In this document: positions 17,186-19,610 of the stretch, one piece after another
How the letters are laid out: the number at the start of each line of letters is the position of its first letter
Numbering within the stretch: position 1 is the first letter of the stretch
From: Myxococcaceae bacterium
Lineage (GTDB): Bacteria; Myxococcota; Myxococcia; Myxococcales; Myxococcaceae
DNA: 36,229 nucleotides
NCBI GenBank assembly: GCA_022842905.1
Contig: JALHOS010000025.1
Coordinates: 1-36,229, forward strand
Direction of reading: 5' to 3'
Notes under the pieces: model-generated
Told to the model about the DNA's origin: nothing
Seen by the model: the letters and a program-made list of their open reading frames with translations, nothing else
Database searches by the model: none
Made by a program: the position numbers and the translations under genes

Positions 17186-17214
17186 TGTAAGGATTGGCTG
17201 GGCAGCGAGTCTCC
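17186..17214 (+). promoter_or_regulatory. candidate ECF-type promoter before the Cys-rich gene
   Basis: GTAAGG (17187-17192) and GTCTCC (17209-17214) are separated by 16 bases, a layout used by many ECF sigma factors (a -35 with an AA core and a -10 containing GTC). The site lies directly upstream of the metallothionein-like gene. A start of transcription 6-8 bases after it would fall at the ATG at 17223 and give a nearly leaderless mRNA, which agrees with the lack of a ribosome site there. It would suit autoregulation by the sigma factor in the same operon. This is inferred by eye from one site only. Confidence 0.3.
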
Positions 17215-17222
17215 CAAGCACC

Positions 17223-17378
17223 ATGAGCGAACCCACCACCTGTCAGTGCCAACGTTGTGAAGCCACCTGCGGCTGCCAAGGCGTCGCCCCGTCGACGAGC
17301 GGCTGCTGCTGCGGCCCGAAGTGCACCTGCGGCCCGAGCTGCGCCTGCCCTCCAACGTGCCGGTGCCCCAAGAAGTGA
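17223..17378 (+). CDS. metallothionein-like Cys-rich small protein
   Basis: A 51-residue protein with 14 cysteines (positions 7, 9, 12, 16, 18, 28, 29, 30, 34, 36, 40, 42, 46 and 48), arranged mostly as CxC, CCC and CxxC, with Gly, Pro, Lys and Thr spacers and no aromatic residue. This is the composition of a metallothionein, and the likely role is binding soft metals such as Cu(I), Zn or Cd in the cytoplasm, since no signal peptide is present. It does not show the SmtA/BmtA family pattern that I know. Its TGA overlaps the GTG of the sigma factor gene (GTGA at 17375-17378), which implies translational coupling. No Shine-Dalgarno sequence precedes the ATG. The reading frame is supported by this overlap and by the improbability of so many well-spaced Cys codons. 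Metal binding is inferred. Confidence 0.75.
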   Translation: MSEPTTCQCQRCEATCGCQGVAPSTSGCCCGPKCTCGPSCACPPTCRCPKK

Positions 17379-17935
17379 GCGACGACGACGCCACGGCTTC
17401 GGTGCGCGCCGCGCTCGCCGAGGAGAGGGCCGCGCTGGTGGCCTTCGCCCGCCGGCGGGTCGGCCCGCGCGCCGAAGACGTGGTGCAGGACGCCGCGGTG
17501 CGGGCCCTACGCAAGGCGGATCACCTGGCGTCTCCGGCGGCCGCGCGCGCGTGGCTCTTCACCATCGTCCGCAACCTGGCCAGTCAGCCTGTCGAAGGCG
17601 CGCAACCAGCCTCCAGCACGGCGCCCGTCGACGAGCTGGGAACGCCGCAAGCCCCCGCCGACGACGGCTGCGACTGCGTGCTCAGCCACCTGCGCGCGCT
17701 GCCAGAGAATCAGCGGCAGCTGCTCGAGCGCGTGGTGGTGGACGGCGCCAGCGTCGGCGCCCTGGCCACGGAGCTGGGCATCACCCCGAACAACGCGTGG
17801 GTCCGCCTGCACCGCGCTCGGCGGGCGCTCAAGGAGCGGCTGGCCTCACACTGCGGCACCACGTCGCTGCGGCGCTGCCTGGACTGCGGCTGCGTGGAGC
17901 GCGGCTGCTGCGGCGCCCCAGCCCCCGCGCCCTGA
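17375..17935 (+). CDS. CorE-like (ECF44-type) sigma factor with Cys-rich tail
   Basis: ECF sigma factor of 186 aa. Sigma-2 is at about 15-75 (AEDVVQDAAVRAL, then ARAWLFTIVRNLA) and sigma-4 at about 104-155 (LPENQRQLLERV, then the helix-turn-helix GALATELGITPNNAWVRLHRAR). Between them lies a CDC motif (Cys99 and Cys101), and after sigma-4 a tail with six cysteines (160, 168, 171, 173, 178, 179). A linker CxC plus a C-terminal Cys domain is the mark of Myxococcus CorE and CorE2, which sense copper or cadmium/zinc directly without an anti-sigma factor. No anti-sigma gene is seen here either. The GTG start at 17375 is chosen for its 4-base overlap with the preceding stop; GTG at 17321 or 17357 are alternatives. 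The partner gene encodes a metallothionein-like protein, which supports metal sensing. The exact metal cannot be read from sequence. Confidence 0.88.
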   Translation: MSDDDATASVRAALAEERAALVAFARRRVGPRAEDVVQDAAVRALRKADHLASPAAARAWLFTIVRNLASQPVEGAQPASSTAPVDELGTPQAPADDGCDCVLSHLRALPENQRQLLERVVVDGASVGALATELGITPNNAWVRLHRARRALKERLASHCGTTSLRRCLDCGCVERGCCGAPAPAP

Positions 17936-17945
17936 CGTTCGGCGG

Positions 17946-18145
17946 CGAGGGAGGCGCTTGCAGCTCGTGGCCGACGGTTGCGCTTGCGCGCACGGCCAAG
18001 ATGCCCAGCAGCGCGATCGCCACGTTCAGTGGCACCGTGAGCGAGACCCCAGTCCAGTTGTCCTGGTCGAACTCGGGCAGCAGCGTCACCTCTACGCCGA
18101 ACGCGGCTGCGGCGAAACCAGTGTCCCGCCCGTCACGGCACGGCG
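17946..18145 (-). pseudogene. decayed copy (unit 3) of the DUF4105 gene 3' end
   Basis: Read on the minus strand, this unit encodes EFDQDNWTGVSLTVPLNVA followed by IALLGILAVRASA, which matches the last transmembrane segment of the intact gene at 18366-19610 (VFDQANWNLIALTLPVNAA, then LALLGVLAVRVQA). The original stop is lost, so the frame would continue into the sigma factor gene on the other strand. There is no start codon with a ribosome site and no upstream part of the gene. The unit begins 10 bases after the sigma factor stop. Confidence 0.7.
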
Positions 18146-18352
18146 TGAGAGACGCGCTTCTCAGCTCGGGGCCGACGGCTGCGCCTGCGCGCGCACGGCC
18201 AGCACGCCCAGCAGCGCGAGCGCCGCGTCCACCCGACGACGTGAGCGCGATCCGACTCCGGCTGTCCTGATTGAACTCGGACAGAACGCGTCACCTGTTC
18301 GCCGAGCGCGGCTGCGGCGGCACCAGGGTGCCTGCCCTGAACGCACGACCTG
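18146..18352 (-). pseudogene. decayed copy (unit 2) of the DUF4105 gene 3' end
   Basis: The minus strand encodes EFNQDSRSRIALTSS in one frame and, after a one-base shift, VDAALALLGVLAVRAQAQPSAPS and a stop at 18161. The second part is almost identical to the C-terminus of the intact neighbour. The frameshift and loss of the Asn-Trp pair show that it is not translated as such. Beyond the coding match, units 2 and 3 share a further 50 bases (CCGARCGCGGCTGCGGCG and following) that the intact gene keeps only in part. Confidence 0.72.
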
Positions 18353-18365
18353 AGGGACGCGCGCT

Positions 18366-19610
18366 TCAGCTGGCGGCTGGTGGCTGCGCCTGCACTCGCA
18401 CGGCCAGCACTCCCAGCAGCGCGAGCGCCGCGTTCACCGGCAACGTGAGGGCGATCAGATTCCAGTTGGCTTGATCGAACACCGGCAGCACCTTCACCAG
18501 CACGCCGAGCACGCTCAGCCCAGCCACCGCGAGCCCCACCGCGCGCAGCCGCGTCCAGGCCTGCGCCCGCCCCAGCATGAGCTGCACGCCCACCGGCACC
18601 AGCAGCCAATGGAGCGGGCCGATGCCGAAGAGGTTCTCGTTGCGGTGGGCCACCGTGTGGTTGGTGAACAGCCCGACGAGGAACAGGAACAGCCCGAACG
18701 CTCCCCACACCAGCCCCACCAGCGACACTTGCAGGCCGAGCGCCACCCGCGGCCAGCGCGCGCCACGCCGCCCCAGGTGCCCCAGCCCCAGCGCGACTCC
18801 ACCGAAGGCGCAGCCGAGCAGGAACAGGTGGGGGATCCAGTTCGGCGGGACTTCGGGTGGAGGTGAGCGGTTGGACTTGAACCAGTCGCGCTTCTCCTTC
18901 ACCAGCGGCCCCACCGTGCCGTCGTCGTGGGTCACGGTCAGCGTGTCGAGCTGCCGCTCGAGCTCGTCGGGGAGGAACGCTTCGTTCTGGAGGGTGATGG
19001 GGCGCTCGAGCTCGTCGTTCTGGAGGTAGTCCAAGATCACCGACATCACCGGGCTCGCGCTCGAGTAGCGCCGCGTGTGGAGCCGCAGCGACATGCGCGC
19101 GGGCTTGTCGGTGGCCTTCTTGATCTGCCCGTTCAGCGCCAGGTCGACGATGTCCCGAGGCCGGGTGGAGCAGTTGTCGTTGTAGTGGTGGTACAGGTAC
19201 ACGCGGTTCTGCGGCTTGACGTTCTCCGAGAGCGCCTTGGCGACGATCTGCGCCTCGCTCGGCGTCAGCGAGAGCACCTGCAGCCGCACGTCGCGATTGA
19301 GCAGCCGCTTGTAGAAGTCGTACGTGGCGAGGATCGGCGCGTCGTCCACCCAGAACTCCAGCCGCCCCTGGACGAAGCGGTGCACGAAGCCGTCGTCGAA
19401 GCCGAACATGCCGTAGTTGTAGAGCCGCCCATGGTTGAGCCGCGCGTCCTCCACCACCAGCGCCGTGTGCCCCCACAGCTCCGTCAGCGTGTCGCCTGGA
19501 GAGAACGTGACGAGGGTGATCGTCAGGTCCTCCGGCCGGCTCTGGCCCGTCGCCCACGGCGGGTCGCTCTGCGAGGCCACCACCATCAGGAGAGCTGTCA
19601 GGGCGGTCAT
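18366..19610 (-). CDS. DUF4105 (Lnb N-terminal type) membrane protein
   Basis: A 414-aa envelope protein. The N-terminus MTALTALLMVVASQ is a signal peptide, and the following periplasmic domain (about 25-260) has the DUF4105/PF13387 features: ELWGHTALVVED, YNYGMFGFDDGFVHRFVQGRLEFWV, and the NDNCSTRPRDIVD box with a conserved Cys that suggests a papain-like hydrolase fold. Similar domains occur at the start of bacterial lacto-N-biosidase-like proteins and in many uncharacterised envelope proteins. After about residue 262 come five or so hydrophobic segments. The last (ALALLGVLAVRVQA) is also encoded by the two decayed units downstream. ATG 19610 is chosen for the signal peptide. Function unproven; a peptidase or amidase role is a guess from the fold. 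Confidence 0.85.
   Translation of the reverse strand: MTALTALLMVVASQSDPPWATGQSRPEDLTITLVTFSPGDTLTELWGHTALVVEDARLNHGRLYNYGMFGFDDGFVHRFVQGRLEFWVDDAPILATYDFYKRLLNRDVRLQVLSLTPSEAQIVAKALSENVKPQNRVYLYHHYNDNCSTRPRDIVDLALNGQIKKATDKPARMSLRLHTRRYSSASPVMSVILDYLQNDELERPITLQNEAFLPDELERQLDTLTVTHDDGTVGPLVKEKRDWFKSNRSPPPEVPPNWIPHLFLLGCAFGGVALGLGHLGRRGARWPRVALGLQVSLVGLVWGAFGLFLFLVGLFTNHTVAHRNENLFGIGPLHWLLVPVGVQLMLGRAQAWTRLRAVGLAVAGLSVLGVLVKVLPVFDQANWNLIALTLPVNAALALLGVLAVRVQAQPPAAS

Follow-up and report, generated by a model that had tools for sequence, protein, structure and literature searches.

The 36,229-base window analyzed here, which is one whole contig (G000:C25), carries a gene for a small cysteine-rich protein that runs into a gene for an ECF sigma factor with a cysteine-rich tail, and small genes and sigma genes of these types are found together as a unit, here as in over 20 distantly related bacteria. 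Sequence comparison shows the pair to be conserved as a unit across several lineages of Myxococcota and in one Actinomycetota genome. Taking the evidence as a whole, we read it as an autoregulated metal-sense-and-sequester operon with a sister subfamily of the CorE sigma factors in charge, and give this reading a probability of about 0.72.

The first gene of the proposed operon (17223..17378, forward strand) encodes a 51-residue metallothionein-like protein with 14 cysteines and neither histidine nor aromatic residues; its translation is MSEPTTCQCQRCEATCGCQGVAPSTSGCCCGPKCTCGPSCACPPTCRCPKK, ending at the stop codon. Cysteine makes up 27% of this frame, and the runner-up among the 40-120-residue frames of the window has 15%. 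The protein agrees with the general description of metallothioneins (small, more than 20% cysteine, repeated CxC and CC, few aromatics) and is predicted to be of a metal-binding type, the binding and the identity of the metal being likewise predictions. The second gene (17375..17935, forward strand) begins with GTG and encodes a 186-residue ECF sigma factor with sigma2 and sigma4 domains (Sigma70_r2, 2.4e-10; Sigma70_r4_2, 4.8e-10; PF04542 and PF08281 above the Pfam cut-off). The two genes share a GTGA stop/start (17375..17378, forward strand), which suggests translational coupling of the sigma factor to the small gene. Between its domains the sigma factor has a linker CxC (C99-D-C101; 17669..17677, forward strand) that was invariant in a 15-sequence alignment, and its C-terminal cysteine-rich domain (17852..17911, forward strand) reads C160-GTTSLRR-C168-LD-C171-G-C173-VERG-C178-C179, placing six cysteines within residues 160-179. 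C160, C168, C171 and C173 were invariant across the same alignment, and position 163, the equivalent of CorE Cys184, is threonine. Translation bore out the coordinates and counts of the original prediction for the 51-residue, 14-cysteine frame and its GTGA overlap with a 186-residue sigma factor, and the linker CxC and six-cysteine tail that it had described were both there.

AlphaFold gave confident helices for both sigma domains and low confidence in the linker and tail; since the tail is low-confidence, the model is uninformative on the metal site. The neighbors of the pair are a short-chain dehydrogenase upstream and an Lnb_N protein downstream, and with both neighbors identified there is no anti-sigma gene beside the sigma factor. 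We saw no metal genes among these neighbors either, which we counted against a metal-operon reading. Between the sigma gene and the Lnb_N gene (18366-19610, minus strand) lie degenerate tandem copies of the 3' end of the Lnb_N gene (17961-18438), spaced by about 205 nt and numbering three for a 31-37-nt core.

The small protein (P0001) matched no curated family in Pfam or NCBIfam. For eight relatives the best Pfam match was to Metallothio_5 with an E-value of 0.38, NCBIfam again gave no match, and a PDB search with the small-protein profile gave none. The relatives nevertheless retain the cysteine pattern around a common core, GCCCGxxCxCGxxCxCxxxCGC, while their length (31-59 residues) and non-cysteine residues vary widely. 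In two sets of closely related small genes dN/dS is 0.11-0.22, which shows purifying selection: G1011 gave 0.20 when compared with G1021 and 0.22 with G1031, and G1228/G1319 gave 0.11. G1021 and G1031 are so similar to each other that their ratio of 0.64 reflects too few changes to tell. We rate these proteins, on their sequences, as an uncatalogued metallothionein family.

The linkage of the two genes could be approached from either side. Starting with the small protein, we built a profile from eight small proteins (A4) and searched with it 379 genomes from the phylum of G195; it found 17 carriers, 15 of which had not supplied the profile. In 14 of these 15 profile-independent carriers a sigma gene with a cysteine-rich tail followed on the same strand, no more than 1.5 kb downstream, and by chance we would expect such adjacency on the order of 1 in 1000 per genome (an estimate, taking a target of a few kb in ~7 Mb). 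The window's own phylum set had the small gene in 6 of 195 genomes, adjoining a cysteine-rich-tail sigma factor in five; the sixth carrier, G058, has two copies, one standing alone and one of 31 residues beside its sigma factor. The module is rare in two other phylum samples of 396 genomes each, which yielded one and two carriers. The two matches from the Acidobacteriota set, related cysteine-rich small proteins at L167 (1495-1662) and L168 (1356-1670) in two genomes, have neither an adjacent sigma gene nor the promoter motif described below, and would represent a side branch under other control.

Starting with the sigma factor, we scanned genome contigs once and obtained 80 loci, among them ten sigma factors, the window's included, in which the second tail cysteine is absent (HCG[TV]x... 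in place of CGTC...). A small cysteine-rich gene lay directly upstream on the same strand in seven of the ten (the window, L034, L040, L044, L049, L051 in the 31-residue form, and L072), and at L041 it was located on another contig. We found no small gene for L032, the closest relative of the window's sigma factor (~63% identical), or for L033, and counted both against our best reading. Matches listed from plasmids were only distant ECF relatives, with identities below 40%. The original prediction had set its own test, by which the pairing might have proved accidental; when run, the test found the small gene ahead of the sigma gene in relatives and the frame conserved.

Most pairs have a spacing of between -4 and about +30 nt, and the 4-nt overlap is seen in four cases: the window, G197 and G201 (all GTGA) and G1179 (ATGA). 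At L174 a MerC gene stands between the small gene and the sigma gene and has an ATGA overlap with the former, and in G200 the two are on different contigs. At canonical cysteine-rich-tail sigma loci the small gene is often separate, convergent or divergent, behind a motif copy of its own. L183 (1426-1922) has two consecutive cysteine-rich small frames ahead of a canonical sigma factor of this kind, with one motif copy ahead of the first frame and another ahead of the sigma gene.

In a maximum-likelihood tree of 54 sigma factors, those without Cys184, including the window's, fell on one side of a single branch (100/99, one change). The small gene was upstream in 16 of 19 of these versus 3 of the 35 others, part of the 16 having been found via the small gene and the unbiased figure being the 7 of 10 given above. 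CorE itself (M. xanthus MXAN_3426) has four invariant cysteines, 181, 184, 192 and 194, and an activating Cys189 that is found in 11 of 21 described CorE-like members (PMC3107203). The window's sigma factor has Cys189 as C168 and keeps three of the invariant four, Cys184 being replaced by Thr163, unlike the second M. xanthus member, which keeps all four (PMC3107203). With only three of the four, it was filed not as a member of CorE but as a sister subfamily, and its sequence places it in the Cys184-less sister subfamily. The description "CorE-like" in the original prediction needs narrowing: the linker CxC and the cysteine-rich tail are there, but the protein belongs to a separate sister clade lacking Cys184. 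Elsewhere in the tree, the sigma factor of L100, from a record labelled Comamonas sp. KCTC 72670, nested among Myxococcus sequences, and this record is probably mislabelled or contaminated.

Upstream of the small gene we identified a candidate CorE-type ECF promoter (17186..17212, forward strand; TGTAAGGATTGGCTGGGCAGCGAGTCT) with -35 TGTAAGG and -10 AGTCT, the sole match to the motif in the window where 0.05 were expected. Between the end of its -10 element and the start codon (ATG) of the small gene there are 10 nt, so that the operon mRNA may be nearly leaderless. The general form of the motif is TGTAA, 16-18 bases, then CGTC[T/A]; the AGTC of the window, where most loci have CGTC, we counted against our best reading. 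The strict motif occurred within 600 nt upstream at 9 of the 10 Cys184-less sigma loci versus 0.015 of 10 in shuffles, and was absent from 96.8 kb of flanking sequence. A relaxed form occurred within 110 nt upstream of 24 of 30 small genes versus 5 of 1730 control stretches; the 30 took in small genes that are convergent, divergent or free-standing. Three more small genes beyond these 24 (G1011, G1021 and G1031) have it at about -117. In G200, where the genes are unlinked, the motif precedes the small gene and the sigma gene, each on its own contig, and in G040, a single-contig genome from the window's order, the sigma gene has a copy to itself while a variant, CGTAA-N-CGTC, precedes the small gene. 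We call the motif CorE-type because in M. xanthus it occurs, as TGTAAGTCCCCGCGACGGTCTGCGTCT, ahead of the counterpart of a CorE-controlled gene, a 74-residue HMA gene at L036 that adjoins corE. The L036 sigma factor has the cysteine layout of CorE including Cys206, and cysteine spacing, size, the HMA domain and the neighborhood led us to assign it as CorE and the HMA gene as MXAN_3427, for which experiments have shown induction by copper and control by CorE (PMC3107203). The small gene and sigma gene are probably co-transcribed, and a common CorE-type promoter fits the sense-and-sequester idea that the original prediction had put forward.

We propose no regulon for the sigma factor beyond the operon. 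The 7.85-Mb genome of the window had 8 motif matches versus 13 in a reversed control, none apart from the window's own having a credible target position or neighbor, and a G/T variant of the motif had no match in that genome. With no other credible site in the genome, the likely regulon is the operon itself. The sigma factor (P0002) had ten matches in the same genome, the second-best listed (E-value 4.3e-6) covering residues 32-157 without the tail, and no second sigma factor with a cysteine-rich tail was seen among the matches listed. In ten related genomes, the motif was matched about as often as chance predicts once the small-gene/sigma sites and one CopA/CopZ pair were set aside. This pair, at L143 (1500-1620; G201:C26:19714-19834), has two divergent CorE-type promoters ahead of its genes for a CopA-like ATPase and a CopZ-like 75-residue protein, and comes from the same genome as the L044 pair. 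Some loci have metal genes as neighbors, which we counted in favor of our best reading: at L174 there is the MerC gene, and at L044 a MerR protein, a CxxxC-rich protein, an efflux OEP and a CusB-type protein. The MerR-family regulator and the CxxxC-rich protein, of 97 residues, immediately precede the small gene and sigma gene of L044 (1334-2070). The 97-residue protein resembles copper storage proteins and has no Pfam match.

In the circuit we propose, a rise in a cytosolic thiophilic metal would load the cysteine-rich tail and linker CxC of the sigma factor and switch it on, and the active sigma factor would recruit RNA polymerase to the TGTAA-N17-AGTCT promoter, which lies 37 nt upstream of the small gene. 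Transcription would then raise both the metallothionein and the sigma factor, a self-activation, while the GTGA overlap would couple translation of the sigma factor to that of the metallothionein, giving abundant buffer and little sensor. The metallothionein would bind and detoxify the metal and withdraw the activating ligand of the sigma factor, closing a negative loop. The gene pair, its overlap, its conservation, the common promoter and the subfamily are the computationally supported steps; the metal binding, the metal, the activation, the coupling and the feedback are inferred. By analogy, copper is the most likely metal, favored because of the M. xanthus precedent, the surroundings of L044 and the CopA/CopZ-like pair behind the motif; zinc or cadmium is possible, and the MerC gene at L174 is a caution that the metal may be another one. 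The metal response of CorE is not transferable outright, because a cysteine important in CorE is missing here: Cys184 of CorE is needed for inactivation, and a C184A mutant expresses its target without copper and shows no transient peak (PMC3107203). We tentatively raise the idea, doubtful as it is, that the off-switch has moved out of the sigma factor, with Cys184 lost and the co-translated metallothionein ending the response by metal withdrawal. If true, this would make the operon an adaptive circuit of one promoter and two genes, in which the output protein terminates its own signal.

The same observations would also suit a metallothionein that is a plain target of the sigma factor, serving detoxification only, with the operon saving a promoter and any effect on the sensor incidental and small. 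This explanation has every step of the sense-and-sequester reading except the feedback, and we give it even odds; the two assessments overlap and do not sum to one. Canonical loci, where the small gene often stands separately behind its own motif, speak for it in that co-transcription is not required, but same-strand adjacency is usual in the Cys184-less clade (16 of 19) and the recurrent 4-nt overlaps point to selection for joint expression. At the other extreme, the small gene might be a spurious GC-rich cysteine frame beside an ordinary sigma gene, as a short frame with no curated family match could be; conservation, linkage and promoter results all contradict this, and we dropped it, with next to no probability left, as refuted at the family level by the 14 of 15 linkage and 24 of 30 promoter counts.

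Two further explanations give the small protein a different part in signaling. It could be a metallochaperone that delivers metal to the sigma factor and does not remove it, an idea in line with the speculation of the CorE authors on a Cu(II)-specific upstream metallochaperone (PMC3107203) and with the adjacency and matched expression of the genes. We consider this unlikely, as 14 cysteines with repeated CxC suit cluster buffering over the handover of a single ion, and the related CorE works, and the sister sigma factor L032 occurs, without such a protein. Less probable still is an anti-sigma-like partner that binds the cysteine tail through a shared metal: strict adjacency and overlap are as in sigma/anti-sigma pairs and there is no other anti-sigma gene alongside, but the genes are unlinked in G200 and convergent in others, and the variable length (31-59 residues) and non-cysteine residues are unlike an interaction surface.

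What appears new in the sense-and-sequester operon is the way in which a CorE-like switch is arranged, together with a metallothionein family that is uncatalogued. The original prediction knew of no described case of the pairing, and our search of full-text literature agreed in finding no metallothionein/ECF sigma pairing, with the primary CorE2 paper and the 2021 ECF re-classification outside its reach and a mention in either possible. The arrangement suggests a compact, self-limiting metal-stress switch. A sigma factor that is probably metal-switched, a new metallothionein family and a readable promoter would together make a minimal feedback circuit that can be tested, a natural counterpart without Cys184 in which to dissect how CorE proteins are turned off, and a compact part for a metal biosensor.

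Metallothioneins are few in bacteria, and to our knowledge the ones that have been described are under the control of repressors. The operon resembles SmtA/BmtA with the SmtB repressor in pairing a metallothionein gene with its own metal sensor. SmtB is an ArsR-type repressor that acts by de-repression, and SmtA has a zinc-finger-like fold with histidine and aromatic residues; here, in contrast, the sensor would be an activating sigma factor, and none of the prokaryotic metallothionein models fitted the small protein. It also resembles MymT/RicR of Mycobacterium, where a small copper-protective metallothionein belongs to a copper regulon (PMC10141476), although the regulator there is a CsoR-type repressor and not a sigma factor. 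CorE2 of M. xanthus has the same sigma architecture and responds to cadmium and zinc, with the layout of the tail cysteines setting metal specificity (PMC8999054). The nearest counterpart is CorE, classed as ECF44 and partly merged into ECF238: like CorE, the window's protein is an ECF sigma factor with a linker CxC, a C-terminal cysteine-rich domain and no anti-sigma gene, the positions of Cys 181, 189, 192 and 194 are kept, and the promoter is of the form TGTAA-N-CGTC. Unlike CorE, it has threonine at Cys184, an extra terminal CC, a putative metallothionein gene ahead of it, and a clade of its own.
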